A stretch of 32,558 nt of DNA from Nitrospirota bacterium (GTDB taxonomy: Bacteria > Nitrospirota > Thermodesulfovibrionia > Thermodesulfovibrionales > UBA6898), in the NCBI GenBank assembly GCA_016217695.1, contig JACRHE010000099.1, forward strand, positions 1-32,558, given 5' to 3'. Shown here piece by piece: positions 2,067 through 19,778 of this stretch. Numbering within the stretch: position 1 is the first letter of the stretch; each line of letters begins with the position of its first letter. The notes under the pieces are model-generated. The model was not told the DNA's origin and searched no databases. It was given only the letters and a program-made list of their open reading frames with translations. The translations under genes and the position numbers were made by a program.

Positions 2067-2184
2067 CAAATTATGGGTATTCATTTGCCGCTTTAATAGT
2101 CTTGCAGCTGACCGGTCTTCTTATGGTAAAATTCCTGAAATGAATGTCAGGAATAGACTGAAGAGAAATATCGAGAGGGTCTCT

Positions 2185-2847: not shown

Positions 2848-2871
2848 GCCTCTGCTATCCACTAGCAATAG

Positions 2872-3027
2872 AACCGACATCTGCGCGGAGACGTCATTGT
2901 CGCTCATTCTCGCCCTGATCAGATCGGGACTCCAAGGCACCAGGCCGCCTCACCTCGACGGTGAGGCAATACGGCCCGCTGAAACCGCTTTAATGCATCT
3001 CCACGCAGAGTTGATGGTGGATTCTGG
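2872..3027 (+). repeat. Dispersed 156-bp intergenic repeat, copy A
   Basis: This copy aligns without gaps over 156 bp to positions 22234-22389, with about 123 of 156 bases identical (counted by eye). The most conserved blocks are GCTCATTCTC near the left end and a CCACGCAGAGTTGATGGTGG block near the right end. The middle diverges but keeps a hairpin with 7-8 bp stems at 2947-2967. It begins 24 bp after the stop of the lipoprotein gene and ends 14 bp before the -35 of the glgC promoter. It carries no transposase. Together with the promoter it accounts for the 311 bp between the two genes. Confidence 0.85.
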
Positions 3028-3040
3028 CCCTCATAACTCA

Positions 3041-3070
3041 TTGACACTCTTAGATTTTTCCTGATATACT
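3041..3070 (+). promoter_or_regulatory. sigma70 promoter of glgC
   Basis: TTGACA (3041-3046, perfect -35), an 18-nt spacer and TATACT (3065-3070, 5/6 match to the -10) predict transcription starting near 3077. That gives a leader of about 80 nt before the chosen glgC start. The promoter starts 13 bp after copy A of the dispersed repeat. Confidence 0.7.
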
Positions 3071-3158
3071 CCACTATAAATATGCATTCGCTATGGAGTT
3101 TGGCGGCGTTAGCCTGAGAGGGGTTTTGTTTCCGATTTTTTGTGAGGAGTCTGAGGCG

Positions 3159-4406
3159 ATGGAGAGGGCAACTAGGGAAAAAGAGATAAGGAATGTCCTG
3201 GCTCTGATACTCGCCGGAGGAAAAGGAGAGAGGCTTCATCCCCTTACGATTCACAGGGCAAAACCGGCTGTGCCATTCGGCGGTAAATATCGGATCATCG
3301 ACTTTACCCTTAGCAACTGCATCAACTCCAGTATCCGGAGGATCGTTGTGATTACGCAGTATAAGTCCCTTTCCCTGGACAGGCATCTCGCCCTTGGCTG
3401 GGAGCACCTGCTGAACCCTGAACTCGGAGAATATATCTTTACCATACCGCCGCAGCAGAGGATCGACGAACGCTGGTACGAAGGGACGGCTGACGCGGTT
3501 TTTCAGAACATCTATCTCATAGAGAAGGAGAATCCTCCTTATATCCTCATCCTGTCCGGCGATCATATTTATAAGATGAACTATGCCGGGATGTTCGATT
3601 CCCATATAGGCAACCACGCCATGGGGACCATAGCAACCATAAGGATACCCAGGAAGGATGCCCCGGCCTTCGGCATTGTAGAGGTGGACAGCGGCTCAAG
3701 GATCATAGGATTCCAGGAAAAGCCCGACCAGCCGAAGACCATACCCGGGGATACCGAGTACTGTTATGCCTCTATGGGTGTCTATTTGTTCAACACAGAA
3801 GAGATTATCCATCAACTGAAGGCCGATGCCGGCCGGTCATCCGCGCATGACTTCGGCAGGAATATCCTGCCCGAGATGCTGAAGACAGGGAGGCTCTATG
3901 CCTACGAGTTCAAGGATGAAAATAAAAAAGAGGCAAAGTACTGGCGTGATGTCGGTACAATCGACTCATACTGGGAGGCGAACATGGACCTCGTTTCTGT
4001 TGACCCTCTTTTTAACCTTTATGACAGGGATTGGCCGCTTCGGACGAGCCAGGGGCAGTATCCTCCTGCAAAATTCGTCTTTGCCCAGGAGTACAGGGGC
4101 GGGAGGCTCGGTCTGGCCCTTGATTCGATCGTATGCGGAGGCTGCATCATAAGCGGCGGACGTGTGCAGAACTCAGTCCTTTCCCCTAACGTGAGGATCA
4201 ACAGCTACGCGGATGTCAGGGAATCCATCCTGATGGAAAACGTTGAGATAGGCAGGAACTGCAAGGTACGAAGGGCGATCATCGACAAGGATATCTATAT
4301 TCCTGCCGGTACCATTATAGGATATGACGCCAAGGCCGACCAGGAGAGATTCCTTGTCAGCGAAGGCGGCATTGTTGTAATACCGAAAGGGGCCGAGGTG
4401 CAATGA
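3159..4406 (+). CDS. glgC: Glucose-1-phosphate adenylyltransferase (ADP-glucose pyrophosphorylase)
   Basis: Makes ADP-glucose from glucose-1-phosphate and ATP, the committed step of bacterial glycogen synthesis, in the cytoplasm. The 415-residue product has the nucleotidyltransferase signature LAGGKGERLHPLT, then KPAVPFGGKYRIIDF, SGDHIYKMNY, FQEKP and YWRDVGT. The C-terminal third is a left-handed beta-helix of hexapeptide type (SVLSPNVRINSYADVRESI onward). ATG 3159 is preferred over ATG 3093: it has GAGGAG 9 nt upstream and aligns with the usual N-terminus, while the earlier start adds 22 unrelated residues and has no ribosome binding site. Length is normal for the family. The stop overlaps the next gene's ATG by 4 bp, so the two are probably translationally coupled. 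No other glycogen gene is in the window. Confidence 0.95.
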   Translation: MERATREKEIRNVLALILAGGKGERLHPLTIHRAKPAVPFGGKYRIIDFTLSNCINSSIRRIVVITQYKSLSLDRHLALGWEHLLNPELGEYIFTIPPQQRIDERWYEGTADAVFQNIYLIEKENPPYILILSGDHIYKMNYAGMFDSHIGNHAMGTIATIRIPRKDAPAFGIVEVDSGSRIIGFQEKPDQPKTIPGDTEYCYASMGVYLFNTEEIIHQLKADAGRSSAHDFGRNILPEMLKTGRLYAYEFKDENKKEAKYWRDVGTIDSYWEANMDLVSVDPLFNLYDRDWPLRTSQGQYPPAKFVFAQEYRGGRLGLALDSIVCGGCIISGGRVQNSVLSPNVRINSYADVRESILMENVEIGRNCKVRRAIIDKDIYIPAGTIIGYDAKADQERFLVSEGGIVVIPKGAEVQ

Positions 4407-5533
4407 GTCTTGCGGGAAGGCTTGAAGACCTTGCACTTGCGGATATCTTCCAGATACTCAGTGTCGGTAGAAAGACCGGGACTTTCATCGTCAACGGCAG
4501 CAAGGGTACTGCGATCATCGTCTTTAAAAACGGGATGGTCGTCAGGGCCGAAACTGATGATCTGAAGGGAACCCTTGCCGACAACCTTTTAGACGCCGGA
4601 CTGATAAAGGTTACGGTTCTGAACATGGCGGTCGAAATAAAAAAAAAGCTGCCCTCGAAATCGCTTGCAGAGATTCTCTCCGATTTCGGCTCTGTCAGTC
4701 CGGAGATGCTGGAGAAGGTCACGCGCAAGAGGATCGAGCGGGTCATATACAGGCTGCTGCTCTGGGAGGACGGCGACTTTCAGTTTGAGCTCGATGACAT
4801 GACGCTGGAGGGCAAGACGAATCTGTACGACCTCGGATGGGAACTCTTAAAGGGGCTGAGTACGGAATATCTCCTCATGGAAGGCGCGCGCGTTGCTGAT
4901 GAGTCTACTCAGTCATCTTACATATCTACCTACGAATTCCAGGAAGAAGCACCCTCGGAAGAGGGGGAAGGATGGGATGAAGACTGGGAGACCCCTGCTG
5001 TTGAGCGAAAGGATATAACCGCGCTCAAGTCGCTTACCCAGGAGCTGAGGTTTCCAACTTCCACCTCCGAGATAACTCTTCTTGTCCTGAGATTCGCGAG
5101 CGATATCTTTCACCGAGGCGTACTTTTTATGGTCGGCAGGAATGAGATGATCGGTCTCGGACAGTTCGGGCTTGAGATCGAGCAGGCTGACGAGAGAGTC
5201 AGGGCCACTGTCCTGCATACTGATAAGAGCCCTTTTTTGAAAAAGATAATCACAGAACAGATGCCGTATAAGGGGCCGATGGAGAAGGACGATGTGACGA
5301 AGAAGCTGATGGATGATTTCGGCGGTGTCTGGCCTACTGATGTTGCCATCTTCCCTGTGATCGCGGAGGGGAAGGTCGTTGCCCTGCTCTATTGCGATAA
5401 CTTTTCGACCGGGGAGCAGATCAGGGAGACAGAGGGGCTCGATATTTTCATAAGCCATGCAGGTCTTGCACTTGAGAAATCACTGCTCCAGAGGCGGCTG
5501 CATGAGATGGAGACACGAAAGGGTTCTGCGTGA
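4403..5533 (+). CDS. DUF4388 (PATAN-like) and GAF-like domain protein
   Basis: A 376-residue cytoplasmic protein. Residues 1-150 match DUF4388: MSLAGRLEDLALADIFQIL, GTFIVNGSKGTAIIVFKNG, and a winged-helix-like segment ending in LLWEDGDFQFEL. An acidic linker (~170-200) joins it to a GAF-like sensor or partner domain at ~210-370, which ends in the coiled GLALEKSLLQRRLHEME helix. DUF4388 proteins often sit next to two-component or chemosensory genes and are thought to be signalling adaptors (family knowledge). Here the gene overlaps glgC by ATGA and lies 162 bp before the chemosensory operon, so it could connect reserve carbon metabolism and signalling (inference). No catalytic motif is visible. 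Confidence 0.8.
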   Translation: MSLAGRLEDLALADIFQILSVGRKTGTFIVNGSKGTAIIVFKNGMVVRAETDDLKGTLADNLLDAGLIKVTVLNMAVEIKKKLPSKSLAEILSDFGSVSPEMLEKVTRKRIERVIYRLLLWEDGDFQFELDDMTLEGKTNLYDLGWELLKGLSTEYLLMEGARVADESTQSSYISTYEFQEEAPSEEGEGWDEDWETPAVERKDITALKSLTQELRFPTSTSEITLLVLRFASDIFHRGVLFMVGRNEMIGLGQFGLEIEQADERVRATVLHTDKSPFLKKIITEQMPYKGPMEKDDVTKKLMDDFGGVWPTDVAIFPVIAEGKVVALLYCDNFSTGEQIRETEGLDIFISHAGLALEKSLLQRRLHEMETRKGSA

Positions 5534-5695: not shown

Positions 5696-6064
5696 GTGAA
5701 GACCATTCTCATTGTTGAAGATTCAGCCACAACGAGGGCTCTCATCCGTGCTGTCATCGACGAACTGGGTGAAGTTGAGACAGTCGAGGCATCGTCTGGG
5801 TTCGAGGCTCTCAAGATGCTCCCGCAGCAGGAATATGATCTCATCATAACAGACATCAATATGCCTGATATCAACGGGCTTGAACTGATCAGTTTTATAA
5901 GAAACAATCCCCGGTATAATCATCTCCCCATTATCATCGTCAGCACGGAAAGGAGCGAGGAGGACAAGAAAAGGGGCATGGCCCTCGGCGCAACGGCGTA
6001 TGTCACCAAGCCGTTTAAGTCTCTCGAACTCCAGGAGATCATTAAGAAGACTATCGGCTTATGA
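5696..6064 (+). CDS. cheY: Single-domain CheY-like response regulator (first copy)
   Basis: A 122-residue receiver domain with nothing attached. The acidic pocket is E8/D9, the phospho-acceptor is D53 (TDINMP), the switch residue is S83 (IIIVST) and the conserved lysine is K105 (TKPF). It is the expected phosphorylation target of the CheA encoded directly after it, with which it shares an ATGA overlap. The start is GTG, with GGGAGAG a few bases upstream. It is close in length and motifs to the regulator at 20608, so the operon is bracketed by two CheY paralogues. Whether it drives a motor, a pilus or another output cannot be read from the sequence. Confidence 0.93.
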   Translation: MKTILIVEDSATTRALIRAVIDELGEVETVEASSGFEALKMLPQQEYDLIITDINMPDINGLELISFIRNNPRYNHLPIIIVSTERSEEDKKRGMALGATAYVTKPFKSLELQEIIKKTIGL

Positions 6065-8037
6065 AATCTTCAAAAAAGGAATTCATCGCTGAAGCAGAGG
6101 AGCTTCTGGAGGAATCTCAGAGGTTGGTGCTGGAAATCCAGGATACCCTGGCTACCGGTCTCAACCCTGACACGATAAACGCCCTCTTCAGGTCCATGCA
6201 TACCCTCAAGGGGGTCTCCGGCCTTTTTGGCCTGCAGGGCATAACAAACCTCAGTCACGCGCTCGAAACCCTCATGGACGACGTGAGGCTCGGGAAGATC
6301 GAGATCAACAGGTCTGTCATAAGCTTCCTGTTTAAGAACATCGACATACTCAAGAACCTCGTCGATGAGATCGGCGGCGGCAGTGAGACTGATTCCGGGC
6401 CATACATAAAGGATATACAGGCGTTCAGGGAATCCCTCAAATCAGCAGGAGGCGACGCAACTGCGGGCGGCATGATCGACGAAGCCATCATGAAGGTCCT
6501 TTCCGAATACGAGGAGCACAGGCTGAAGGCGAACATGAAGGAGGGCAAGGGAATATATCTTGCCAAGGCTGTCTTTTCCCTTGATGTCTTTGACAAGGCC
6601 CTTGAAGAGCTGACTAAGAAGATAAAGACAAAGGGAGAGGTCATCTCAACCCTGCCCACCTCCTCAAATGTCCCTGACGGTTCCATAGGATTCAACCTGA
6701 TGTTCGGGAGCAGGACGCCGCCTGAAGAGTTGAAGGCTGACATCCCGTATGAGATAGAGGCACTGGTAAAGTCAAAGACAGAGGTCCAGGCAGCACCCCC
6801 TCTTCCTCCTGCCCAGAAGCAGGATACCCACCTTAAGAGCACCACGACCACGGTGAGGGTGGATATAGAGAAGCTTGACAGGATACTCAATACGGTCGGA
6901 GAACTGGCCCTTGCCAAGGGCGCAGTCAAGAGGATCGGCACCGAGCTGGTCGATCAGTACGGCCATACCTCCCTTGTCTATGACGTGCATAAAATAACCC
7001 AGACCCTCGAAAGAAGGCTTGCCGAGCTCCAGGACCAGGTGCTTGAGATAAGGATGGTCCCCATAGGCCAGATATTTTCCCGGCTGGCTCAGGTTATAAG
7101 GCGCTATTCCAGGGATGTGGACAAGCATATCGACCTTGTCATATACGGGGAGGAGACCGAACTCGACAAATACATAGCCGAGGAGATCATCGACCCTCTC
7201 ATGCATCTCGTCAGAAACTCGATAGATCACGGCATAGAGCCGGCTGAAGAGAGAAAGAGAAAGGGCAAGAAGGAAGAGGGTACTGTAATCATCAAGGCAT
7301 ATCAGAAGGGAAACCACGTTGTGGTTGAGCTCCGGGATGACGGGGCTGGCATCAACGTGGAAAAGGTGAGGAAGAAGGCCCTTGAAAAAGGTCTTATAGA
7401 CAAGGATACGGAACTCGACGCAGGCAAGATCATGGACATTATTTTCACTCCCGGCTTCAGTACAAAAGACGTTGTGAGCGAGGTCTCAGGCAGGGGGGTA
7501 GGCATGGACGTGGTCAGGGAGAAGCTGTCTGCCTTCGGAGGGTTCGTCGAGGTGGAAACAGCCAAGGACGTCGGGACCACCTTCATGCTCACCCTGCCGA
7601 TTACGCTTGCCATTATAAAGGCCCTTATAGTGCGTGTCGGGCATGAGCGGTTTTCCGTGCCGCTGACATCGATGTCCGAGACTCTGATCATAGATCACAG
7701 GGACATCCAGACGATCGAGTGGAAAGAGGTCTATTACCTCCGGGGCGAAATGCTTCCCCTTGTGAGGATAAGCAGTTTTCTCGGCATTGACAGCGACACC
7801 GCAGGCAGGTCGTTTGCGGTCGTGGTAGGTTACGGAGAGAGACGGGTGGGGCTTCTTGTCGACGAGCTCTTCGGGCAGCACGAGATAGTCATCAAGTCGC
7901 TCGGAGAATATTTTAAAAGGCTGAGGGGGTTTGCAGGGGCTGCTGAGATCGGCAAGCACGAGGTGATCCTTGTCCTCGACATCGAGGCCCTTATTGATGA
8001 ATCGATGGTACGGCAAAAAGGAGGTACCCATGTTTGA
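6061..8037 (+). CDS. cheA: Chemotaxis-type histidine kinase CheA
   Basis: Autophosphorylates on histidine using ATP under receptor and CheW control and passes phosphate to CheY and CheB. Domains of the 658-residue protein: Hpt at 1-110 with phospho-acceptor His47 (MHTLKG); a non-standard middle region at ~135-245 (VLSEYEEHRLKANM, GEVISTLPTS) in place of a typical P2; dimerisation helices from ~265 (KLDRILNTVGELALAKG); an HATPase with N box (HLVRNSIDHGIEP), DDGAGI and GRGVGMDVV; and a C-terminal CheW-like domain from ~510. No receiver domain is fused. The middle region resembles that of alternative-function CheA proteins of the Myxococcus type (recalled, not searched). The gene overlaps cheY1 by 4 bp and its end contains the AAGGAGG used by the next gene, which it overlaps by 8 bp. 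Confidence 0.96.
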   Translation: MKSSKKEFIAEAEELLEESQRLVLEIQDTLATGLNPDTINALFRSMHTLKGVSGLFGLQGITNLSHALETLMDDVRLGKIEINRSVISFLFKNIDILKNLVDEIGGGSETDSGPYIKDIQAFRESLKSAGGDATAGGMIDEAIMKVLSEYEEHRLKANMKEGKGIYLAKAVFSLDVFDKALEELTKKIKTKGEVISTLPTSSNVPDGSIGFNLMFGSRTPPEELKADIPYEIEALVKSKTEVQAAPPLPPAQKQDTHLKSTTTTVRVDIEKLDRILNTVGELALAKGAVKRIGTELVDQYGHTSLVYDVHKITQTLERRLAELQDQVLEIRMVPIGQIFSRLAQVIRRYSRDVDKHIDLVIYGEETELDKYIAEEIIDPLMHLVRNSIDHGIEPAEERKRKGKKEEGTVIIKAYQKGNHVVVELRDDGAGINVEKVRKKALEKGLIDKDTELDAGKIMDIIFTPGFSTKDVVSEVSGRGVGMDVVREKLSAFGGFVEVETAKDVGTTFMLTLPITLAIIKALIVRVGHERFSVPLTSMSETLIIDHRDIQTIEWKEVYYLRGEMLPLVRISSFLGIDSDTAGRSFAVVVGYGERRVGLLVDELFGQHEIVIKSLGEYFKRLRGFAGAAEIGKHEVILVLDIEALIDESMVRQKGGTHV

Positions 8038-8848
8038 GGAATTTTACGGATTGAAGGTCAAGCCGTTCAGCAAGACACCTGATCCCAAATTCCTGTTCCT
8101 CAGCAGGAACCATGAGGAGGCCCTGGCACGTCTTATGTACGCTGTTGAGGAAAAGGATCTGATCCTTCTCACCGGTGAGGTGGGGTGCGGGAAGACGACC
8201 CTGACAAGGGCCCTGATGGATATGCTCGGTGAAAATTACCGCGTTATCACAATCATCAATCCGGTTCTGAGCCCTGCGCAGTTTCTGCGGACTATCGCAA
8301 AGAGGATGGATATCGATATCCCCTCCATCTACAAGGTGGATCTTCTCGACGCGATCTATGAGAAGGTATTCAGCGACTACGAGGCCGGGATCTCCTATGT
8401 GATCATTATCGACGAGGCCCAGCTGATTCCGAGCAAGGACACCTTTGAGGAGATACGGCTGCTTACGAATTTCCAGCTTGACTATACTAACCTCCTGAGC
8501 CTCATCCTCGTTGGACAGACAGATCTGAGGAAGAGGCTGAGCCACAAAACCTATCTGCCGCTGAAACAGAGGATAGGTCTTTTTTACCATCTCGGCCCGA
8601 TATCCGGGGATGAGATAAAGGACTATATCATGTACAGGCTGAAGATGTCGGGCAGGGAAGATATGCTCTTTACGGAGGAGGCGCTGAAGGCCCTGCACAG
8701 ACTTTCGGGAGGTATTCCCAGGGTGATTAACAGCATCGCGACATCGGCACTGCTCGACGGGTTCAGCCGCGAAGTCAATATCATCGACGGCTCTCTCATA
8801 GAAGACGCCTCCCGTGAACTGGGGTTACATGGACATTTCGAAAATTAG
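8030..8848 (+). CDS. AAA ATPase of the ExeA/GspA (MshM-like) type
   Basis: A 272-residue ATPase. It opens with the typical FYGLKVKPFSKTPDPKFLF segment. A Walker A follows at 49-57 (GEVGCGKTT), a Walker B with D128/E129 (IIIDEAQ), a sensor-like VGQTDLRKRL and a C-terminal lid (GGIPRVINSIA). Relatives load secretins through peptidoglycan (ExeA with ExeB), serve MSHA pilus assembly, or occur in exopolysaccharide clusters (family knowledge). No membrane or peptidoglycan-binding domain is present here, so it is the bare cytoplasmic ATPase. ATG 8030 is fixed by AAGGAGG five bases upstream, and the gene overlaps the cheA 3' end. Being embedded between cheA and cheW is unusual and suggests a link to a pilus or envelope output (inference). 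Confidence 0.88.
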   Translation: MFEEFYGLKVKPFSKTPDPKFLFLSRNHEEALARLMYAVEEKDLILLTGEVGCGKTTLTRALMDMLGENYRVITIINPVLSPAQFLRTIAKRMDIDIPSIYKVDLLDAIYEKVFSDYEAGISYVIIIDEAQLIPSKDTFEEIRLLTNFQLDYTNLLSLILVGQTDLRKRLSHKTYLPLKQRIGLFYHLGPISGDEIKDYIMYRLKMSGREDMLFTEEALKALHRLSGGIPRVINSIATSALLDGFSREVNIIDGSLIEDASRELGLHGHFEN

Positions 8849-9545
8849 GAAAAAGGCAAAGGCCAAAGAGGCGGAAAGGAAGGCTGAGGAAAAGGCCGGA
8901 GAGACTCCTGTCGGGAGTTCGGACGATTCTGAGGCAGCTGCCGCTGAAGCACCGCAGGAACCGGAGGAATACAGGGAGGCGGAAGAAGACCAACCGGCCG
9001 GCGCCGGTTCAGCGGATGCAAAAGACGAAAAAGAACCTGAAAAGGCCGGAGATGAAGAGGGTTCGGGAGGGGAGAAGATAATTGAACTCCTTACCTTCAC
9101 CCTTTCGAATGAGGAATATGCCTTCAGGGTCTCAGAGGTCGAGGAGATCGTAAGGTATCAGAGAATAACAAGGGTGCCCACGACCCCGGCGTTTGTTAAG
9201 GGCATAACATCCCTCAGGGGGAAGATTATCCCTGTCATGGACCTCAAGACGCGTCTTTCCCTTGAACAGACTGAGAAGGAAAACTCTTCGGAGTCCTATG
9301 AAGAGGTTGAGGACAAGAGGAGCAAAAACGAGAAGATTCTCATACTTGGCGGACCGCAGGGCCTTATAGGAGCAACGATAGATAAGGTAATGGGTGTTGT
9401 TAGGATGCCTGAGACAGGACTGCTCAATCCGCCGGCACATCTGTCGGAAGAGGAACTGAAATATATCGAAGGCGTTGTGATACTCGATAAGCGTTTCATA
9501 TCAGTTATAAGGGCTGGAGACGCTCTCAACATAGAAGGCAGCTAA
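8829..9545 (+). CDS. cheW: CheW adaptor with a charged N-terminal extension
   Basis: A 238-residue CheW couples receptors to CheA. Residues ~1-78 are a low-complexity extension: first Lys/Ala/Glu-rich ([18 protein letters not shown]), then strongly acidic and probably disordered. The CheW domain follows from ~80 ([54 protein letters not shown]). It has an extra acidic loop ([19 protein letters not shown]) between strands. ATG 8829 has GGGG a few bases upstream and overlaps the ATPase gene by 20 bp; the in-frame GTG at 8814 would add five residues. It is the longer of two CheW genes in the operon and stands before the first receptor, so it may serve that receptor specifically (inference). Confidence 0.9.
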
Positions 9546-9555
9546 AGGAGGCCGT

Positions 9556-12408
9556 ATGCGCGAAAAACTTGAATTAAAGATACTCATTCTGGTGGTAAGC
9601 CTCCTCCTTATCGGGATCCTCGTGGCAGGCTTCATGGTGCTTACAATAGAAAAGTCCAGTCTGTACAGTATAACCGAGTCGAGTTCCGAATCAACGGCGA
9701 ATATCATCGCAAAGGACGTTGAACGGACGATGATAGAGGGCAGGGCTGATCTCACCAGGGCCCTGGTGGAAGACCTCAAAGGGGTGAGCGGGGTGGAAGG
9801 CATCTCTCTGCTGAATTTTGAGGGACGGCCGGCGTTCGACAAGACAGCGGCTGCTCAGGAGAGCGAGGCCATGAAAAAGATAGCCCAGACAAAGGCCCCT
9901 CTGCATTACAGGGATGTAAAAAAGCTCATCTTTTATAAGCCCCTTGAAAATACCGACAAGTGCAAGGCCTGCCACGCGACCGATCCCGCCATACTCGGCG
10001 CGGTCAAGATATCCTTTTCGATAGAAAAGGAGTACCAGGATGCCACGAGACTCATTGTTATAGTTATGCTCGCCACGGTCCTTGCCTGCTTCTGCTTCAG
10101 CATCATACTATGGGCCATGATCAGGAAGCTGGTGATTACTCCAATCAAGGCGCTTGAAGAGGCGGCTCTGAAGCTTTCCGAGGGTGATCTTTCTTTTGAT
10201 GTCAGGTTGAAGGGCAGGGATGAGATCAGCAGGTTCAGCAATGCGATTCAGGACTCGCTCCTTTCGATATCCGGGATCCTAAAGAGGATCAAGGATGTCT
10301 CGCGGAGGGTGACGAGTGTTGCCGAGGATGTCAATACCGAGTCGAAGAAGGTGGTTGAAGGGACTATTCTCGAGACCGAGGCGATCCATAATATCTCTTC
10401 TTCCATTGAGGAGATGAACGCCGTCATATCCGAGATTGCAGACGGGACTGACGGGCTTGCTGCCTCTGCAGAAGAGACGGCTGCCTCGATGGAAGAGATG
10501 GTGACGAGCATAACCCAGATCACCAGCAGCACTCAGGACTTCTCTATGGCGGTGGAATCCACGTCAGCCTCGATCGAGGAGCTCTCTGCAACGATAAAGG
10601 AAGTGGCGGCAAACGCCAATGAACTGGCTGCTGCGGCAGAGGATACCCAGTCTGCAATCATTCAGATATCGTCGTCCATAAAGGAGGTCGAAAAGAGGGC
10701 AAAAGAATCAGCGGTGCTCTCCGACAAGGTCAAAAACGATGCTGTCACCTTCGGCATGACTTCTATTGAAAAGACGATAGCAGGCATGCAGAACATCAAG
10801 TCTTCTGTTGAGAAGACCGCTGACTATATCACAAAACTCGGCGGCAGGTCGGAGGAGATCGGAAAGATCCTCAACGTCATCGACGAGATAACCGACCAGA
10901 CCACTATGCTTGCCCTGAATGCTGCTATCCTTGCTGCTCAGGCAGGTGAGCACGGCAAGGGCTTTTCCGTTGTTGCTGACGAGATCAAGGAGCTTGCAGA
11001 GAGGACCTCGATGTCGACACAGGAGATAGCATCCCTTATCCAGTCTGTTCAGCAGGAGGTAAGCGATGCGGTTGCTGCGATGGACGAGGGTCTTAAATCC
11101 GTAGAACTCGGGTTCAAGGTTACCCAGGAGGCTGCCGACGCCCTCAGAAAGATCGTTGAAAGCTCGAAAAAATCCTCTGAAATGGCAGCTGCTATAGAAC
11201 ATTCCACCACAGAGCAGTCCAACGCTGCACAACTTGTCTCCTCGGCGATGGAAAAAGTTCTGACCATGGTAGGACAGATTGCAAAGGCGACGACCGAGCA
11301 GAACAGGGGCATACAGCTGATCATGAAGGCGACCGAGAGGATAAGCGATGTGTCGACCCATATCAAGACCGCTACCAACGAGCAGTCCCTCAACAGCAGG
11401 CAGATCTCCCAGGCTGTAGAGCTCGTCTCCGACAAGAGCCAGCAGATTTCCCGGGCGATAAACGAGCAGAAGGTCGGCTCGGCCCAGATACTGGGCTCCA
11501 TAGAAAAGATTCAGGACCTGCCTAAGGAGAACAAGGAGAGGGCCTTCAGACTCAATCAACTGGTGAAAGAGCTTCTGAAGGATGCCGAGTTGTCCGTCAT
11601 CGAGATGGAGAAATTCAGGTTTGCTGAGGAGACCTCCTCAAATCTGCTGAGGATGGGCATTGTGCCTCTTGAATCACCTGCAGAGATGTTCAAGAAGTTC
11701 AGCCCTCTTGCAGAGTACGTCGCAAAGAGACTCAACAGGCGCGTTGACCTTAAGGTCGCAACCGATTTCCAGGGAGCCGTAAATGATCTGGGACAGGGGA
11801 TAACGCAGTTCTGCTTCATGACCCCTTCGACATATATAGAGGCTCATAAGAAATACGGCGTCAAGGCTTTAGTGAAGGCTCTGCGGGACGGCAAGCCTTA
11901 TCAGCATGCGGTCATTGTCGCCAAGAACGACAGCAACATCAATTCCGCTGAGGATATCAGGGGACGGTCCTTTGCCTTCGGAGATCCGCACTCAACATCA
12001 AGCCATATAGTGCCGAGGGGCATGTTGCTCGCTGCCGGCGTTGATATCAAGGACCTCCATTACTACAACTATCTCGGACACCATGATGACGTGGCCAAGG
12101 CCGTCCTCAACGGCGACTTCGATGCCGGAGGGATCATGGAATCTACGGCGAACAAGTTCCGGGATATGGGGCTGAAGCTGGTCAAGATATCTGAGGACAT
12201 CCCGGAGTTCAACATATGCGTCTCAGGCGATCTTGACGGCAAGATCGTGGCTGAGCTCAGGAACGCATTGCTCTCAATAAACGATTCCACATCCGAGGGG
12301 ATCCTGATCCTGAAATCCATTAACCCGAACTATACCGGCTTTATCGAGTCTTTGGATGAAGACTACAACGGAGTAAGGCTCATGATGACGAAAATAGGAT
12401 TGATATAA
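9556..12408 (+). CDS. Chemoreceptor with periplasmic CxxCH motif and C-terminal PhnD-like binding domain
   Basis: A 950-residue receptor. TM1 is ~8-30, the periplasmic domain ~31-163, TM2 ~166-188, HAMP ~189-241 and the receptor signalling coiled coil ~260-660. The periplasmic part ends with CKACH at 136-140, a c-type heme attachment motif, followed by [14 protein letters not shown]. The signalling tip reads [19 protein letters not shown]. From ~690 there is a phosphate/phosphonate-binding (PhnD-type) domain: [29 protein letters not shown] and the hallmark [12 protein letters not shown] at 809. With two membrane segments this C-terminal domain should be cytoplasmic, unlike normal PhnD proteins. 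AAAGGAGG precedes the ATG by 4 nt. Likely senses redox or a heme ligand outside and possibly an anion inside (inference). No CheR-binding pentapeptide is present at the end. Confidence 0.9.
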
Positions 12409-12432: not shown

Positions 12433-13251
12433 ATGAAAAAGACGGGCTTTTTTATTTTTTCGGCAGTTGTATTTTTCTCTTTTGTCCAGACAGCTCACGC
12501 TGAAGAAAAAATACGTGTAGCCGGATCAGGCTCGATGATCTCACTTGTCTCGGAGCTGGCTAAGGCGTTCATGACAGACAACAGGAACCTTGTAATAGAA
12601 GTGAACCAAAAGTCGATAGAATCCACAGGCGGAATCATGGGCGCTGCCCAGGGGCAGCTGGAGATCGGCATGGCCTCAAGGCCCCTTAAGGATGACGAGA
12701 AGGCGATGGGCGTGGTGGCCTCCGAGATATCACGCGTTGCAACGGTTATAGGCGTAAACAGGAGTGTTGCTGTAAAGGAGATAACGAGCGATAACCTCTG
12801 CAAGATTTACAGCGGCAAGGCTACCAACTGGAAACAACTGGGCGGCGGCAACGAAAATATCATGCCGCTTACACGCCCTGACAGGGATGCTACAAAGGAG
12901 ACGGTCAGAAAGAGCGTGGCCTGCTTTAAAGACCTGAAGGAGCCCGAGACCGTGGCTATTGTGGCGACCGCTCCTGAGATGACGAAGATTCTTGCCAACA
13001 GGCCAGGGACAATCGGTTTTACCGATTCAGTCGCGGTTGACGATTCAGGGGGTGCTATAGTGGCGCTGAAGCTCGACGGACTGTTGCCCTCTCCCGAGCA
13101 TGTTAGAGACGGGAGATACAGGATCATCAAGTCCAACTTCCTTATTACCAAAGGTCAACCGGCAGGAGCTGCCGCTGATTTTCTGAAATTCATAAAGGGG
13201 CCTAAAGGGACTAAGATCATCGAGGCGAACAAGGCTGTTGCGGTTAAATAA
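12433..13251 (+). CDS. Secreted PstS-like phosphate-type substrate-binding protein
   Basis: A 272-residue periplasmic binding protein. A Sec signal (MKKTGFFIFSAVVFFSFVQ) ends near AHA before Glu23. The mature part has the phosphate-binding family features: VAGSGSM at the start of the fold, a TGGIMGAAQGQLEIGMASR loop, YSGKATNWKQLGG, PLTRPDRDATKETV and GTIGFTDS. The family binds phosphate or related oxyanions and normally feeds a PstCAB transporter, but no transporter gene is nearby. Its place between two receptor genes suggests it presents ligand to a receptor (inference). ATG 12433 is preferred to the GTG at 12430 because AAAGGAGG is then spaced 6 nt away. It lies 24 bp after the first receptor and shares that gene's ribosome binding site sequence. 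Confidence 0.88.
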   Translation: MKKTGFFIFSAVVFFSFVQTAHAEEKIRVAGSGSMISLVSELAKAFMTDNRNLVIEVNQKSIESTGGIMGAAQGQLEIGMASRPLKDDEKAMGVVASEISRVATVIGVNRSVAVKEITSDNLCKIYSGKATNWKQLGGGNENIMPLTRPDRDATKETVRKSVACFKDLKEPETVAIVATAPEMTKILANRPGTIGFTDSVAVDDSGGAIVALKLDGLLPSPEHVRDGRYRIIKSNFLITKGQPAGAAADFLKFIKGPKGTKIIEANKAVAVK

Positions 13252-13315: not shown

Positions 13316-13363
13316 ATGAAAGTGTTTGCGGCGTTATCCAAGACAGGGGTGATGGTCAGATGA
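13316..13363 (+). CDS. Possible 15-residue leader peptide coupled to the second receptor gene
   Basis: An ATG at 13316 has a near-ideal AAGGAGG about 5 nt upstream and reads 15 codons (MKVFAALSKTGVMVR) to a TGA whose first two bases belong to the ATG of the next gene (ATGA). The receptor gene itself has only a poor ribosome binding site. The simplest reading is that ribosomes load here and reinitiate on the receptor. The peptide has no obvious runs of a regulatory amino acid. It is too short to be sure that it is a gene. Confidence 0.45.
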   Translation: MKVFAALSKTGVMVR

Positions 13364-15384
13364 TATTCAGGAAGTCCATTACCGCAAAGTTTCTGGCTGC
13401 CCTGTTCGTTATCCTCCTGATAGGGCAGTCGATCGGCGCTGTCATCCTGGTGCTGTATACAAAATCCGCGCTTTTCGATTCGCTCGAAAAGAGGATAAAG
13501 AAGGCTGCCACGATCATAGCCGGAGTTAGCTCCGGCCCCCTGCTCAGTTACGACTATGCCATGATAGATACGTATCTGGCGGAGGTGATGCGCGACGATG
13601 ATATCACATCCGTCCATATACTTGACGCAGGCGAAAAGATCATCCGGGAGAACGTCAAGTCTAAGGACAACGGCATAAAGACGCTTAATCCTTTTCTTTA
13701 TTCCCAGGCCCTGACCCTGAAGGTTCCGGTTAACGTTGCAGGGACAAAGATAGGTGAGGTGGTAATAGACTATTCGGCCAGGTCGGTCAACAAGAACATC
13801 TCGGAAAGCATACTCACCATCTCGCTTTATCAGCTTATCATGCTCCTTGCTGTCGGTGTAATCATGGTATATTTCTTCAATCGAAATATTAAGCATCCCG
13901 TATCGGAGATCAACAGGGCGATAGAGAAGCTGACCATGGGCGATCTTTCCGCCGACATCCCTGCCCTTGAGGATAATGAGATCGGCAGCATAGCAAAGGG
14001 AATAGCCTTCCTTGCCGAAAGGCTCTCGGAGACAGTGGCAAAGCTGAATTCCACGGCTGTGAATGTCTCGATGGCGATAAAGCAGGTGGATGTTACCTAC
14101 AACAATGTGATAAACGGGACAACCAAACAGCTCAACGCTGTGAAGGAGATCATAAAGTCGATCCAGATCGCCAACAGGTCCCAGGTAAATATCAACGACA
14201 ATTCCGAGAAACTGGCCAGTTTCTCGACCGAAAATGTCTCGTCTCTAATAGAGCTTAAGGCAACCGCTGAGGAGATAGCATCAAATACCCAGAGGCTGTT
14301 TAAGGCGACTGAGGACGCCTATTCCGTTGTCTCCCAGATGACCCAGGCCGCCAAGATGATATCCGGGACGTCAGGGGATGCCCTGACCGCAATTGAGGAT
14401 ACCTCTGCGTCGGTCGAAGAGATTGGCGCATCGGTTAAAGAGGTGGAGGAGCATGCGAAGGAGTCATCCAAGATAGCTGAAAAGGTCAAGGAGGTCACCT
14501 CCGGAGTCGGCATGATGTCTGTTGTTAATGCCGTTGAAGGGATGGACAACATATCCACTGAGGTCAAGAGGTCGTCTGATATCATCCAGAGGCTCGAGAC
14601 AAGGTCTGTTGATATCGAGAAGGTGCTTTCGGTGATAAAGGATGTTACAGAGCAGACTAACTTGCTGAGCCTCAATGCTGCTATTTTGGCTGCCCAGGCC
14701 GGCGAATACGGGAAGAGCTTTTCAGTTGTAGCTGATGAGATAAGCGCCTTGTCGGAGAGGACGGCGAGCTCAACTCGGGAGATAGGGGGAATCGTCAAGA
14801 CCATACAGAAGGATATAAAGGATGCGGTGAATTCCATCGACTCTGCGATGTCGAAGGTCGACGAAGGCAACGGCCTTGTGCTCAAGGTGGGAGAGGCGCT
14901 CAGGGATACGCTTAACGAGTCTATACATTCCTTTGAAATGACCAAGGCCATAGAGCGCGCGACCGAGGAACAATCCCTCGGACTGGGACAGATCTCGGCC
15001 GCTGTAGAGGAGATCCGCAAGATGATGAACAGCATCGCCAAATCAACCAATGAACAGGACAGCGGCCTCAGCTATCTTCTTGAGAGTGTCGGAGAGGTGA
15101 AAGAGGTTGCAGACCTCAGCAAGAAGGGAACTGAAGAACAGGCGGTCGGCACGCGCGTCATATCCAAGAACCTTGAGCTTGCCAATGACAAGATATCCGG
15201 CATAAGCCTTGCCGTTCAGCACCAGAAGAGGCTGAATGACGACATCATAGTCGCCATGGAGCAGATAAACAGCATCGGCGTCTCAACAGTAAAGGACATG
15301 GAGGAGGTCTCTGCCTCCCTGAATACCCTCTTTGACGAGATCGACATACTGAAAAAGGAGATGGAGGTCTTTAAAACCAGATAG
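13360..15384 (+). CDS. Methyl-accepting chemoreceptor with a small periplasmic domain
   Basis: A 674-residue receptor. TM1 is ~9-31, the periplasmic Cache-like domain ~32-148 (HILDAGEKIIREN, VPVNVAGTKIGEVVIDYS), TM2 ~151-173, HAMP ~174-226, and a long signalling coiled coil runs to the end. The tip is [19 protein letters not shown] at ~431-450. Canonical receptors have AAVEAARAGE, so the Glu and Arg of the trimer contact are Leu and Gln here, as in the first receptor. It ends EMEVFKTR, without a CheR-tethering motif. The ATG overlaps the TGA of a 15-codon leader, and the stop directly abuts the next CheW. Ligand unknown; the preceding PstS-like protein is a candidate partner (inference). Confidence 0.92.
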   Translation: MIFRKSITAKFLAALFVILLIGQSIGAVILVLYTKSALFDSLEKRIKKAATIIAGVSSGPLLSYDYAMIDTYLAEVMRDDDITSVHILDAGEKIIRENVKSKDNGIKTLNPFLYSQALTLKVPVNVAGTKIGEVVIDYSARSVNKNISESILTISLYQLIMLLAVGVIMVYFFNRNIKHPVSEINRAIEKLTMGDLSADIPALEDNEIGSIAKGIAFLAERLSETVAKLNSTAVNVSMAIKQVDVTYNNVINGTTKQLNAVKEIIKSIQIANRSQVNINDNSEKLASFSTENVSSLIELKATAEEIASNTQRLFKATEDAYSVVSQMTQAAKMISGTSGDALTAIEDTSASVEEIGASVKEVEEHAKESSKIAEKVKEVTSGVGMMSVVNAVEGMDNISTEVKRSSDIIQRLETRSVDIEKVLSVIKDVTEQTNLLSLNAAILAAQAGEYGKSFSVVADEISALSERTASSTREIGGIVKTIQKDIKDAVNSIDSAMSKVDEGNGLVLKVGEALRDTLNESIHSFEMTKAIERATEEQSLGLGQISAAVEEIRKMMNSIAKSTNEQDSGLSYLLESVGEVKEVADLSKKGTEEQAVGTRVISKNLELANDKISGISLAVQHQKRLNDDIIVAMEQINSIGVSTVKDMEEVSASLNTLFDEIDILKKEMEVFKTR

Positions 15385-15873
15385 ATGCAGAAATATGCCG
15401 TTTTCCGCATAGCCGACGAGATGTTCGGCATCACTATAGACCGGGTGGTGGAGATCATCAAGCCGCAGAAGGTCTTCTCGATACCCGGCCTGCCGGACTT
15501 TCTCTGCGGGGTCATGAGTGTCAGGGGCGCTGTCATCCCCCTCATTGATTTGCGGAGACGCTTCGGTCTGGAGCCGACCGGGAAAAAGGAGAGGATTATA
15601 ATAGTCCGCTTCGAAAGGGAGAAGATAGGTTTTCTCGTGGACGATATCAAGGAGATAATGTCGCTTGCAGATGAAGAGATCACCAGGCCCCCCGGCATCT
15701 TCAGGGGCTTTAAGACAGAGTATATTACGGGCCTCGGAAAGAAAAATGATGATATCTTCATTCTTCTTCATATCGACAACCTTCTCACATCCGAGGAGAA
15801 GATACTGCTTAAGGAATCCATGGAAGTATTGGAGGAGCGGGATGCAGGAGCCAAGCCGGCAGACAAACGATAG
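15385..15873 (+). CDS. cheW: CheW adaptor, second copy
   Basis: A compact 162-residue CheW domain without the extension of the first copy: YAVFRIADEMFGITIDRVVEI, GVMSVRGAVIPLIDLRRRFGL, RIIIVRFEREKIGFLVDDI and ITGLGKKNDDIFILLHID. Its ATG follows the receptor stop with no spacing and no clear ribosome binding site, so translation is probably coupled to the receptor, which suggests the two are partners. The last 32 bp overlap the HEAT-repeat gene. It links receptor to CheA in the cytoplasmic array. Confidence 0.93.
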   Translation: MQKYAVFRIADEMFGITIDRVVEIIKPQKVFSIPGLPDFLCGVMSVRGAVIPLIDLRRRFGLEPTGKKERIIIVRFEREKIGFLVDDIKEIMSLADEEITRPPGIFRGFKTEYITGLGKKNDDIFILLHIDNLLTSEEKILLKESMEVLEERDAGAKPADKR

Positions 15874-17815
15874 CAGCGTCGAGACAAGGCGGGAGGATGT
15901 TGAACGGCTGAAGGGACTGAAAGATGAATCTGCCATCCCTCTTCTGCTCAGGGCGATGGAAGATCCCAGCTGGCGCGTAAGAAAGACAGCGGTGGATATC
16001 CTTTTTGATAATTATGAGATCGAAAAATACATCGACGGGCTGATCCGGCTCCTCTATATTGAAGACAACGCGGGAGCGAGGAATTCGGCGATCGAATCGC
16101 TTATTCGTCTGGGCAGGAAGGCTACGGTATTTCTCGTCGATGCATTCAAGACCCCTAACAAGGATGTCAGGAAGTTCATTATCGATGTGCTCGGAGAGCA
16201 GAACGACAGCCGCTCCCTGCCTCTGATGCTCGATGCCATTAAGGATGAGGATGAGAATGTCAGGGCTACCGCCGTGGAGCACCTCGGCAAGATGGGAGAG
16301 GTATCTGTCGTCGACGCACTGATCGAGATACTCGACAGCGGAGACCTCTGGACCGCCTATCCCGCTGCAGACGCGCTCGGCAGAATCGGCAACAGTAAGG
16401 CGGTGCCCCATCTTGTGGAAGCTCTCAGGCGAAAGCCTTTGAGGGAACCTGTGCTGAAGGCCCTTGGCCGGCTTGCCGATTCTTCCACCCTCGATGCGAT
16501 CATACCCCTTCTGGAGGATCCATCAAAGAATATTCAGGAACAGACGCTCAAGACGATAGAAAAATATTACCATAACGGTGCGGACGCCGCATTCATAACC
16601 GGCGAGATGAGAAGGATACTCGGCAGCAGGGCGATGGAGCTTCTGATCAGCCATGCGTGGTCTAATAAACATGAGGTGAGGATATCGGCAATCCTTCTCC
16701 TGGGCCTGATGAAGGATGAAGCTGCATATGGGCCGCTCCTGGACATGTCTCATGAAGAGGAGTTTGCGGATGATGTGAGAAATGCCCTTGTCTTCATCGG
16801 CAGGGACAAGCCGGAATCGCTCCTGAAGCTTTTCGATACCGACAATCCCCATCAGCTGCGGTTCATCTGCGAGGTGACCGGGAGGATAGGTTCCCCGGTT
16901 TACTACGACGTCCTGGAAAAACTCCTCTCTAACGAAGACGGGCATGTGCGTTCAACGGCAGCTCTGAGCATATCCGGCCTCGACAACCCTCATGCGGTTG
17001 ACAGACTGAAGACGCTGCTGACCGATCCCTACGAAGATGTGCAGGAAGCCGCTGTGGATGCTCTTTCGAACCTGAAGTGGGCCCTTAAGACAGAGGAGTT
17101 CATCTGCTTCCTCAAAGGCGACAATGTTGTCCAGAGGAGGAATGCGGCCCGGGTTCTCGGCAAGATACAGGCGGCTGATGCGGTTACCGAGCTGGGGTTT
17201 GCTCTGAAGGATGAAAATGTGCGCGTACGTAAGGCGGTCGTGGAGGCTCTGTCGTCGATAGGCACTGACGAGGCGGTGCGTTATCTCAGATATGCCATGA
17301 CCGACGAGGATGCCAATATACGTATCTCTGCTGCGCTGAGTCTTGGGGCCATCGGGGGTAAAGGTGTGCCGGATTCGCTCATCATCCTGACCGCTGATCC
17401 TGATAATTCGGTGAGGGTCGCTACGGCAAAAGCGCTGGGCATGCTGAAGGACAGGGATGCTGTGGGCACTCTCATAGGACTGCTTAAGGACAGAAGCGGA
17501 TTTGTCGTGACCACCTCTCTGGAGGCCCTCGGTATCCTGGGGGGGGACGATGCAAAACATGCCATCATCGGGATGCTCTCTTCTGCGGATGAAGAGATCA
17601 AGAGGACTGCTATCGCCGCCCTTTCGTCTTTTGAAGACATTGATAGCTGTCTTATTCCGTTTCTCAGGGATCCCGATTGGGCTACCAGGCTTGCTGCGGT
17701 CAGGACTCTCGGCAGGAGTGCTGGCGGGGGTGTAAGAAAAGAACTCGAGAGGCTCCTTGACACGGAAGAGGATCCTACCGTAATGAAGGCTGTCGATGAG
17801 ATGCTGCTTGTTTGA
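15842..17815 (+). CDS. HEAT-repeat scaffold protein
   Basis: A 657-residue protein built almost entirely of ~31-residue HEAT (PBS-lyase type) repeats. The recurring pattern is VR..A..ALG......AV..L...L.D, for example DENVRVRKAVVEALSSIG, DEDANIRISAALSLGAIG and DPDNSVRVATAKALGMLK; I estimate about twenty repeats. No catalytic motif, signal or membrane segment is seen. ATG 15842 has GGAGGAG 4 nt upstream and overlaps cheW2 by 32 bp. The frame is open further upstream but runs through cheW2 in another frame, so that extension is not coding. It overlaps cheR by 20 bp. HEAT proteins are binding scaffolds (family knowledge); here it probably holds chemosensory proteins or an output partner together (inference). 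Confidence 0.88.
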   Translation: MQEPSRQTNDSSVETRREDVERLKGLKDESAIPLLLRAMEDPSWRVRKTAVDILFDNYEIEKYIDGLIRLLYIEDNAGARNSAIESLIRLGRKATVFLVDAFKTPNKDVRKFIIDVLGEQNDSRSLPLMLDAIKDEDENVRATAVEHLGKMGEVSVVDALIEILDSGDLWTAYPAADALGRIGNSKAVPHLVEALRRKPLREPVLKALGRLADSSTLDAIIPLLEDPSKNIQEQTLKTIEKYYHNGADAAFITGEMRRILGSRAMELLISHAWSNKHEVRISAILLLGLMKDEAAYGPLLDMSHEEEFADDVRNALVFIGRDKPESLLKLFDTDNPHQLRFICEVTGRIGSPVYYDVLEKLLSNEDGHVRSTAALSISGLDNPHAVDRLKTLLTDPYEDVQEAAVDALSNLKWALKTEEFICFLKGDNVVQRRNAARVLGKIQAADAVTELGFALKDENVRVRKAVVEALSSIGTDEAVRYLRYAMTDEDANIRISAALSLGAIGGKGVPDSLIILTADPDNSVRVATAKALGMLKDRDAVGTLIGLLKDRSGFVVTTSLEALGILGGDDAKHAIIGMLSSADEEIKRTAIAALSSFEDIDSCLIPFLRDPDWATRLAAVRTLGRSAGGGVRKELERLLDTEEDPTVMKAVDEMLLV

Positions 17816-18677
17816 AACAGAAGATATAATCCCTCTCTCTGACGATGTATTCAGACTGATCCGGGACATTATCAAGGATTACTGCGGACTCTATTTCGAC
17901 GACTCTTCGAGGTACCTTCTCGAGAAGCGCCTTACGAGACGGATCAGGAGCCATCATCTCGACGACTTCCGGGACTATTACCGATTTATCCGGTATGACA
18001 GGAATTCCTCGGAGGAACTGGCTGCCATCATCGATGTGCTGACAGTGAACGAGACATATTTTTTCAGAGAACAGAACCAGCTCAGGGCCTTCAGCGAGGA
18101 GATACTGGAAGAGATGAAGGAGACCAACAGGGACAGAAAGACCCTCAGGATATGGTCTGCCGGCTGTTCCTCAGGCGAAGAGCCTTATACCATTGCGATG
18201 CTGATAAACGAGAGGGGCAATTTTAACGGCTGGGATATAGAGATACATGGCAGCGATATCAACCAGAGAGTCCTGCAGACCGCGAGGAAGGGCATTTACA
18301 GGAAAAACTCCTTTCGCACGACCGAGCCTTATCTGTTGAGAAAGTACTTTGTCGAGGAAGACGGCTCCCACAAGATCCTTGACAGCGTAAAAAAGAATGT
18401 CAATTTCAGCTATCTGAATCTCCTCGACCCGGTTAAAACAAGGTTTCTCGGAAAAATGGATGTCATCTTCTGCAGAAATGTATTAATATATTTCGACAGT
18501 GTATCGAGGAGAAAGGTCATAGAGAATTTTTATGACAGGCTTGTTGACGGCGGGTATCTGCTTTTGGGCCACGCCGAGTCCCTGATTAATATATCTACCG
18601 CTTTTACCCTTAGGCATTTTAAGAATGACATGGTATACCAGAAGCCCGAGAAAAAGGGTATGAACATACGTATCTAG
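17796..18677 (+). CDS. cheR: Chemoreceptor glutamate methyltransferase CheR
   Basis: Transfers methyl from S-adenosylmethionine to glutamates of the receptors during adaptation. The 293-residue product has the N-terminal CheR helical domain (FRLIRDIIKDYCGLYF, YLLEKRLTRRI, LTVNETYFFRE) and the SAM-binding domain with IWSAGCSSGEEPYTIAM, GSDINQRVLQTA and VIFCRNVLIYFD. There are no C-terminal TPRs. The ATG at 17796, with AAGG 6 nt upstream, lies inside the end of the HEAT gene. A TTG at 17808 would remove four residues and cannot be excluded. Confidence 0.95.
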   Translation: MRCCLFETEDIIPLSDDVFRLIRDIIKDYCGLYFDDSSRYLLEKRLTRRIRSHHLDDFRDYYRFIRYDRNSSEELAAIIDVLTVNETYFFREQNQLRAFSEEILEEMKETNRDRKTLRIWSAGCSSGEEPYTIAMLINERGNFNGWDIEIHGSDINQRVLQTARKGIYRKNSFRTTEPYLLRKYFVEEDGSHKILDSVKKNVNFSYLNLLDPVKTRFLGKMDVIFCRNVLIYFDSVSRRKVIENFYDRLVDGGYLLLGHAESLINISTAFTLRHFKNDMVYQKPEKKGMNIRI

Positions 18678-18713: not shown

Positions 18714-19778
18714 TTGAAGACAAAGATACTCATAGTTGACGATTCTGCCTATACCCGGCAGCTGATCAAGAAGATAATCGAGCAGGATTCGAATCTTGAA
18801 GTGATCGGTATTGCTGTGGATGGCATCGATGCGATGGCAAAGACCCTTCGCCTGAAACCGGACATCATTACCCTCGACTTCGAGATGCCGGAGATGGACG
18901 GGTTCAGCTTTCTGAGGTGGCTTATGCGGGAGCGGCCCACTCCGGTCATCATGGTAAGTTCGCACAATGATTCCAAAACGGTCTTTAAGGCCCTGGAACT
19001 GGGGGCTGTGGATTTTATTGCAAAGCCGACAAAAAGGGCCTCCATGGAGCTGCAGACCATAGAAAAAGACCTTATCAGGAAGGTTCGGGGCATAAAGAGC
19101 ATCCGTATGGATATCCTCAGCAAGAACCTCGAGCTCCTTGGAAAAGAGGAGGCGGTCAGGGCAGCGGGCGAGTCGGGTGACCGCAACGTCAGGGTCGTGG
19201 CGATAGGCTCCTCGACAGGAGGACCTGCCGCACTTCAGATAATTCTGACCCGCCTTCCCGCTGATTTCCAGGCGGCGATCGTCGTGAGCCAGCATATGCC
19301 GAAAGGGTTTACCGGTCCGCTGTCGGAGCGGCTGAACAAACTCTCACAGCTGACGATTAAAGAGGCTAAGGACTTCGATCCAGTCGAGCCCGGCACCGTG
19401 CTGATATGCCCCGGCGGATACCATCTCGGCCTGAAGAAGAAAGGACCGCAGAGCGTTGTTATCCTGAAGGAGGGGAAGCTTGCAGACAAGTATATACCGT
19501 CTGTGGACTATATGATGAAGGCTGCTGCCGACAATTTCGGGGGGAACACGATGGGGGTCATCCTCACGGGCATGGGAAATGACGGCAGGAGCGGCATGCT
19601 GGAAATTAAAGAAAAAGGCGGTTATACTATAGCAGAGTCTGAAGAAAGTGCAGTGGTCTTCGGGATGCCTGCAGAGGCGATACGGGCAGGCGCTGCGGAG
19701 ACGGTGCTGCCGCTCTCCGAAATACCTGCTGAAATTATTAAGGTAGTGAATTTTTCTTCAAACAGCAAGAGGGGCTAG
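18714..19778 (+). CDS. cheB: Chemoreceptor methylesterase/deamidase CheB
   Basis: Removes methyl groups from receptors once phosphorylated by CheA, closing the adaptation loop with CheR. The receiver domain at 1-120 has D9/D10, phospho-acceptor D55 (TLDFEMPEMDG) and KPT. The esterase domain has the catalytic triad S167 (GSSTGG), H194 (SQHMP) and D290 (GMGNDG). The 354-residue length is typical. The start is TTG, with GGAG 9 nt upstream and no better start. The TAG stop shares one base with the GTG of the next gene. Confidence 0.95.
   Translation: MKTKILIVDDSAYTRQLIKKIIEQDSNLEVIGIAVDGIDAMAKTLRLKPDIITLDFEMPEMDGFSFLRWLMRERPTPVIMVSSHNDSKTVFKALELGAVDFIAKPTKRASMELQTIEKDLIRKVRGIKSIRMDILSKNLELLGKEEAVRAAGESGDRNVRVVAIGSSTGGPAALQIILTRLPADFQAAIVVSQHMPKGFTGPLSERLNKLSQLTIKEAKDFDPVEPGTVLICPGGYHLGLKKKGPQSVVILKEGKLADKYIPSVDYMMKAAADNFGGNTMGVILTGMGNDGRSGMLEIKEKGGYTIAESEESAVVFGMPAEAIRAGAAETVLPLSEIPAEIIKVVNFSSNSKRG

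Follow-up and report, generated by a model that had tools for sequence, protein, structure and literature searches.

Can the cytoplasmic tail of a chemoreceptor act as an input and drive the receptor? The question is raised by one gene in the window, by which we mean the whole 32,558-nucleotide stretch of Nitrospirota DNA analyzed here, a complete contig (C45) of a 3.04-Mb genome that is 87% complete. Chemoreceptors with a C-terminal ligand domain form a poorly characterized subfamily, for which at least 17 domain types in Pfam are reported (Ortega and Krell 2020, PMC7390727). Such domains are recognized but barely studied, and the family to which our gene belongs is a clean and conserved case. 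Its putative input lies at the end of the signaling bundle opposite the kinase, next to HAMP. The receptor is laid out as follows.

9545..9551, + strand: strong ribosome-binding site AAGGAGG (read from the sequence)
9556..12408, + strand: chemoreceptor ORF, TM1-heme-type sensor-TM2-HAMP-long MCP hairpin-PhnD-type binding domain (ORF, Pfam, 16 aligned orthologues)
9580..9636, + strand: TM1, residues 9-27 (Kyte-Doolittle 3.07)
9703..10026, + strand: Mcp40H-20 (c-heme PAS-like) sensor, residues 50-157 (PF21563, E 5e-9; phmmer 3b47, 3b42)
9730..9732, + strand: Met59, candidate distal heme ligand (invariant in aligned orthologues)
9961..9975, + strand: CKACH, residues 136-140, motif for c-type heme attachment (C136, C139 and H140 conserved in all 16 aligned orthologues)
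10054..10110, + strand: TM2, residues 167-185 (Kyte-Doolittle 2.98)
10120..10275, + strand: HAMP, residues 189-240 (PF00672, E 3e-8, match 189-225, extrapolated to 240)
10276..11625, + strand: signaling hairpin, residues 241-690 (PF00015, tip, model helices)
11653..12366, + strand: PhnD/PtxB-type substrate-binding domain, residues 700-937 (PF12974, TIGR01098, 5o2j)

The gene is one uninterrupted ORF of 950 amino acids with an ATG start. Pfam and hydropathy agree with the domain order given in a preliminary description of this DNA (TM1, periplasmic domain, TM2, HAMP, coiled coil, PhnD-type domain) and with its two membrane helices: we find no third segment before residue 690, and the next best 19-mer in the receptor scores 1.01 (Kyte-Doolittle), so that two TM segments are counted. 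Basic residues stand beside both on the expected inside ([12 protein letters not shown]). The MCPsignal profile (PF00015) matches residues 403-568 (E 7e-47), and the hairpin tip AGEHG lies at residues 463-467 (10942-10956) within the tip sequence [19 protein letters not shown], between arms of about 223 and 227 residues. The conserved tip and the neighboring cheA, cheW, cheR and cheB genes mark the protein as an MCP. Because the topology has two TM segments, with the N-terminus and the signaling domain inside, the C-terminal domain is predicted to be inside too; by this topology the receptor fits the class whose ligand domain follows the hairpin and faces the cytoplasm.

AlphaFold models built from a 16-row alignment are weak (pLDDT 61-63; pTM 0.63 for the domain and 0.28 at full length); they tell little that the sequence does not, and we did not use them for pocket geometry. 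In the hairpin they predict helices at residues 274-462 and 464-650. Both arms break about equidistant from the tip in the weak model, at residues 263-273 (10342-10374) and 650-657 (11503-11526), and G269 and P656 are invariant at these breaks, a hint that the bundle has a conserved hinge.

What might the receptor sense on the outside? The periplasmic domain had been proposed to be of heme type, and it is indeed homologous to the solved sensor domains of GSU0935 and GSU0582, matching them along its length (phmmer; 3b47, E 1e-7; 3b42, E 2.5e-4) and scoring 36.9 bits against PF21563 (cut-off 27). The CKACH motif is present at residues 136-140, as described earlier, with C136, C139 and H140 invariant in 16 orthologues; sensor homology and a CxxCH between two TM segments together place the domain among the c-heme MCP sensors. 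In the GSU0935/GSU0582 pair, Met60 is described as the distal heme ligand, bound when the heme is reduced and released on oxidation (PMC8396549). Met59 of our receptor is one residue off the aligned Met of GSU0582, counted as Met60, which makes it a candidate for the redox-linked Met/water switch that goes with covalent heme in c-heme MCP sensors. Because of the c-heme sensor matches and the invariant CxxCH and Met59, our best guess for the outside input is redox or gas sensing. The likeness to GSU0935/GSU0582 (PF21563; PDB 3B47, 3B42) covers the periplasmic PAS-like CxxCH sensor between two TM segments, HAMP and the MCP hairpin, whereas the hairpin in the window is longer (an estimated 32 heptads or so per arm) and is followed by a PhnD-type domain; the comparison extends as far as the description of that family, which was made from its periplasmic sensor.

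We now turn to the tail. A full phosphonate-binding domain had been placed from about residue 690 onward, and the domain search bears this out: PF12974 (Phosphonate-bd) is matched over its full profile (1-242) at residues 700-937 (210 bits, E 4e-62), and TIGR01098, the phosphate/phosphite/phosphonate SBP subfamily of NCBIfam, scores 148.5 bits (cut-off 112). The nearest solved proteins by sequence are PtxB (5o2j, E 5e-31), then ArrX, HtxB, AioX and PhnD; a fold search with the weak domain model also puts PtxB first. The phosphite pocket of Te_PtxB includes S130-T131-S132, H160, Y55, Y100 and the capping pair Y208/D22 (PMC5700983). Three of the aligned positions lie as follows.

11992..12006, + strand: STSSH, residues 813-817, anion-site motif (aligned to S130-T131-S132 of Te_PtxB)
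12082..12084, + strand: His843, equivalent of the phosphite ligand H160 of Te_PtxB (alignment)
12208..12210, + strand: Phe885, replacing the capping Tyr208 of Te_PtxB (alignment; cap role, PMC5700983)

The first of these belongs to the motif GDPHSTSSH, which starts at residue 809. The anion site typical of a PF12974 domain is present as S813, T814, S815 and H843, and it is kept in most of the 42 heme-type rows of the alignment (S813 in 42/42, H843 in 39/42). E862, E884, F885 and N886 around the pocket are nearly invariant in the same rows. The phosphite-specific signature of PtxB is absent: besides Phe885 in place of Tyr208, the cap partner D22 corresponds to Leu705, Y55 to F738 (mostly Phe in these rows) and Y100 to Q783 (His or Gln). 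We therefore rejected phosphite specificity on the cap residues. Phosphonate/phosphate specificity, which the domain name used in the preliminary description would suggest, is likewise not supported, with the PtxB cap and two Tyr ligands changed although the STS-H site is kept. Because the cap is replaced, the ligand assignment is left to candidate anions, and with two Tyr oxygen ligands changed as well, a phosphorus compound is a candidate only. We read the domain as one whose anion site is probably under selection and whose cap is unlike that of the phosphite proteins.

Compared with PtxB (PDB 5O2J, 5JVB; TIGR01098/PF12974), the domain is alike in full-length homology and in the STS-H site; it differs in being fused to an MCP tail, with neither a signal peptide nor an ABC partner. 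It does not fit the profile of an ABC-transporter binding protein, given this fusion and a cluster without transporter genes. Domain-based annotation labels such folds as ABC-transporter components, and here the SBP fold is a probable cytoplasmic sensor.

It is tempting to put these pieces together. Our main reading, to which we give a probability of about 0.5, is that of a two-input chemoreceptor in a non-flagellar chemosensory system, responding to an external redox or gas signal and to an internal metabolite signal. The C-terminal domain would be cytoplasmic, lying next to HAMP where the bundle is closest to the membrane, and would close on a small anionic cytoplasmic ligand at the STS-H site; candidates are a phosphate-ester, a phosphonate or a similar oxyanion metabolite. 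Closure would alter how the coiled coil packs at its HAMP/adaptation end and thereby bias CheA, while the redox state of the heme would shift TM2 and HAMP from the outside and bias CheA as well. We found no precedent for an SBP domain that signals from such a site. A receptor family of this kind would allow the merging of two inputs to be studied.

Does the domain bind a small ligand at all? It could instead be a module that docks onto a partner (say, a transporter subunit, an adaptor or neighboring receptors) or sets spacing, at the end of the array nearest the membrane. The cap and part of the pocket are unlike PtxB, glycine, proline and residues of the hydrophobic core make up most of the domain's most constrained columns, and the cluster has no dedicated transporter genes, all of which would suit such a module. 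Yet S813 and H843 are kept as given above, as are the near-invariant residues around them, and the published pocket columns are slightly less variable than random columns (p ~0.03; p 0.001 for a wider column set that was picked after looking). On balance we regard a pure docking role as unlikely, at something like one chance in a few, and retain the two-input reading.

What is known of such arrangements? That the site is an unusual one for a ligand-binding fold, as had been remarked, is borne out in that this domain is rarely met there, and is qualified by the C-terminal MCP ligand domains already reported (CZB and at least 16 other types; PMC7390727). Our receptor resembles these in having a cytoplasmic ligand domain after the hairpin, and differs in combining an SBP-type fold with a transmembrane heme sensor; PhnD is perhaps among the 17 types. 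No description of an SBP-type domain fused to an MCP C-terminus was found in the literature covered, which lies mostly outside subscription journals. What we judge to be new is the apparent pairing of a cytoplasmic SBP-fold input with a periplasmic redox input in one receptor.

The receptor gene lies within a conserved chemosensory cluster that includes response regulators, one of them listed here.

4403..5533, + strand: DUF4388 (PATAN) protein, upstream of the cluster (PF14332)
5696..6064, + strand: response regulator, CheY-like (PF00072)
6061..8037, + strand: CheA (Pfam)
8030..8848, + strand: AAA_22 ATPase between CheA and CheW, kept in nearly all orthologous che clusters (PF13401, synteny)
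8814..9545, + strand: CheW1 (PF01584)
12433..13251, + strand: PstS-like phosphate-binding protein with a signal-peptide-like N-terminus, optional partner (PF12849, E 4e-31)
13360..15384, + strand: second chemoreceptor MCP2, same arm length, without a C-terminal domain (Pfam; tip 447, end 674)
15385..15873, + strand: CheW2 (PF01584)
17796..18677, + strand: CheR (PF01739)
18714..19778, + strand: CheB (PF01339)

Nearly every orthologous locus keeps the order REC-CheA-AAA ATPase-CheW-receptor-(PstS)-MCP2-CheW-CheR-CheB. The AAA_22 ATPase resembles the XrtA-associated ATPase TIGR03015, under the cut-off of that model, and a HEAT-repeat protein is encoded between CheW2 and CheR (15665-17815).

The PstS-like gene, between the two receptors, suggests another possibility, namely that phosphate status is sensed jointly, by the PstS-like protein outside and by the PhnD-type domain inside. 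The gene follows the receptor directly and has its own ribosome-binding site; its product scores under the cut-off of TIGR02136, and its solved relatives are phosphate-binding proteins. However, only about 7 of some 40 orthologous loci contain the gene (L058 has two copies); it is therefore dispensable, and we rejected it as an obligatory partner; moreover, PtxB and Pm_PhnD, the nearest solved relatives of the tail domain, bind phosphate weakly (PMC5700983). Joint phosphate sensing thus seems improbable to us.

The two-input reading also says something about output. FliM was not found in the genome of the window (87% complete) or in 29 of 43 carriers of the fused receptor, 21 of those 29 being at least 95% complete; it is present in 10 of 18 non-carriers. 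Because FliM is missing in this way, the output is probably not a flagellum and the che cluster is probably non-flagellar. PilT-family ATPases occur in all 61 relatives, a presence that by itself does not tie the cluster to pili. The output would be type IV pili or another non-flagellar function.

Among the roughly nine MCPs of this genome, the window receptor alone carries a PhnD-type domain. On another contig (C157, locus L118), a PhnD-type SBP encoded as a free protein whose N-terminal segment is signal-like (907-1839) is directly followed by an ordinary two-TM MCP (1850-3898). This neighbor pair is like the known pairs of periplasmic SBP and MCP, in which an SBP fold feeds an MCP (PMC9602780); theirs are free and outside, whereas the SBP in the window is covalently attached and predicted to be inside.

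How widespread is the fusion? The closest named relatives of the genome are Nitrospirota MAGs, several of them labeled Thermodesulfovibrio or Thermodesulfovibrionales. Among 61 relatives, 43 have a match to the C-terminal domain at E <1e-60 in frames of at least 640 amino acids. Every such locus that was fetched has the fused MCP architecture, mostly with 945-962 amino acids and a CxxCH near residue 136. In a sample of 296 Nitrospirota genomes, 67 match the C-terminal domain at E <1e-75, and fused receptors were also read in other families, orders and classes of the phylum; the plasmid matches listed for the SBP domain are free SBPs. That the domain is exported, or that the ORF is an assembly chimera, is very improbable: PhnD-type proteins are normally extracytoplasmic and free copies with N-terminal signal segments occur in the same genome, but there is no third TM segment, two TM regions and the same lengths recur in dozens of independent assemblies, and a chance join is ruled out by 16 of 16 aligned orthologues keeping the cysteines and histidine of CxxCH, the tip of the hairpin and the binding domain, and rejected likewise on the conservation of the architecture across relatives and the phylum sample. 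A hydrophobic stretch in L108 (residues 850-868, KD>1.6) was rejected as a third TM segment; it falls within the SBP fold and was interpreted as part of its core.

The periplasmic part is exchanged among the relatives. It may be the heme sensor, a 4HB_MCP domain (L076) or an unrecognized domain (L083), and it is almost nil in L081, L084, L085 and L116; the C-terminal binding domain and the hairpin are kept whatever stands in front. As read from these receptors, the constant part of the family is the C-terminal binding domain and not the heme sensor. We extend the two-input reading, more tentatively, to a Nitrospirota-wide receptor family. In it an SBP fold, normally an outside scavenger domain, would be held at HAMP level as the unchanging sensor inside the cell, reading a phosphorylated or phosphonate-like metabolite, while periplasmic sensors are exchanged around it; a single coiled coil would merge the outside and inside signals toward a non-flagellar output. 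Nitrospirota carriers may in this manner combine a redox signal from outside and a chemical signal from inside in one protein.

Arm lengths bear on where the domain sits. If each HAMP end is extrapolated from its Pfam match, HAMP end and tip are 223 residues apart in the window receptor, L054, L076, L077, L081 and L083, and 138 apart in the short receptors L084 and L085. From the tip it is 236-243 residues to where the SBP profile begins in the long receptors and 145 in the short ones, so that the SBP starts some 1-3 heptads beyond the level of HAMP in either class. Because receptors of both lengths start the domain at the level of the HAMP end, the binding domain should hang in the cytoplasm under the membrane, in line with the cytoplasmic, membrane-proximal site proposed at the outset. 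By our own count, made outside the published class models, the long class would have about 32 heptads per arm and the short class about 20.

In MCP2, HAMP ends at residue 224 and the tip is at 447 (again 223 residues), and the protein ends at 674, 227 past the tip, with no extra domain. The end of this arm coincides with the start of the SBP region in the window receptor; judged by these lengths, the SBP domain has simply been appended to an ascending arm that is itself complete. Since their arms are equal, the window receptor and MCP2 have the length to share one array.

In a tree, the SBP domains from long-hairpin receptors fall into a single clade (support 99/97). Because those of the short-hairpin L084 and L085 group, weakly (85/71), with tandem SBP proteins, there may have been two separate fusions of SBP to MCP. 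Proteins of 550-750 amino acids with two tandem PhnD-type domains are common in the order (L086, L087, L088, L089, L090, L091, L095), and in L090 the tandem is joined to a DsbD-type membrane domain.
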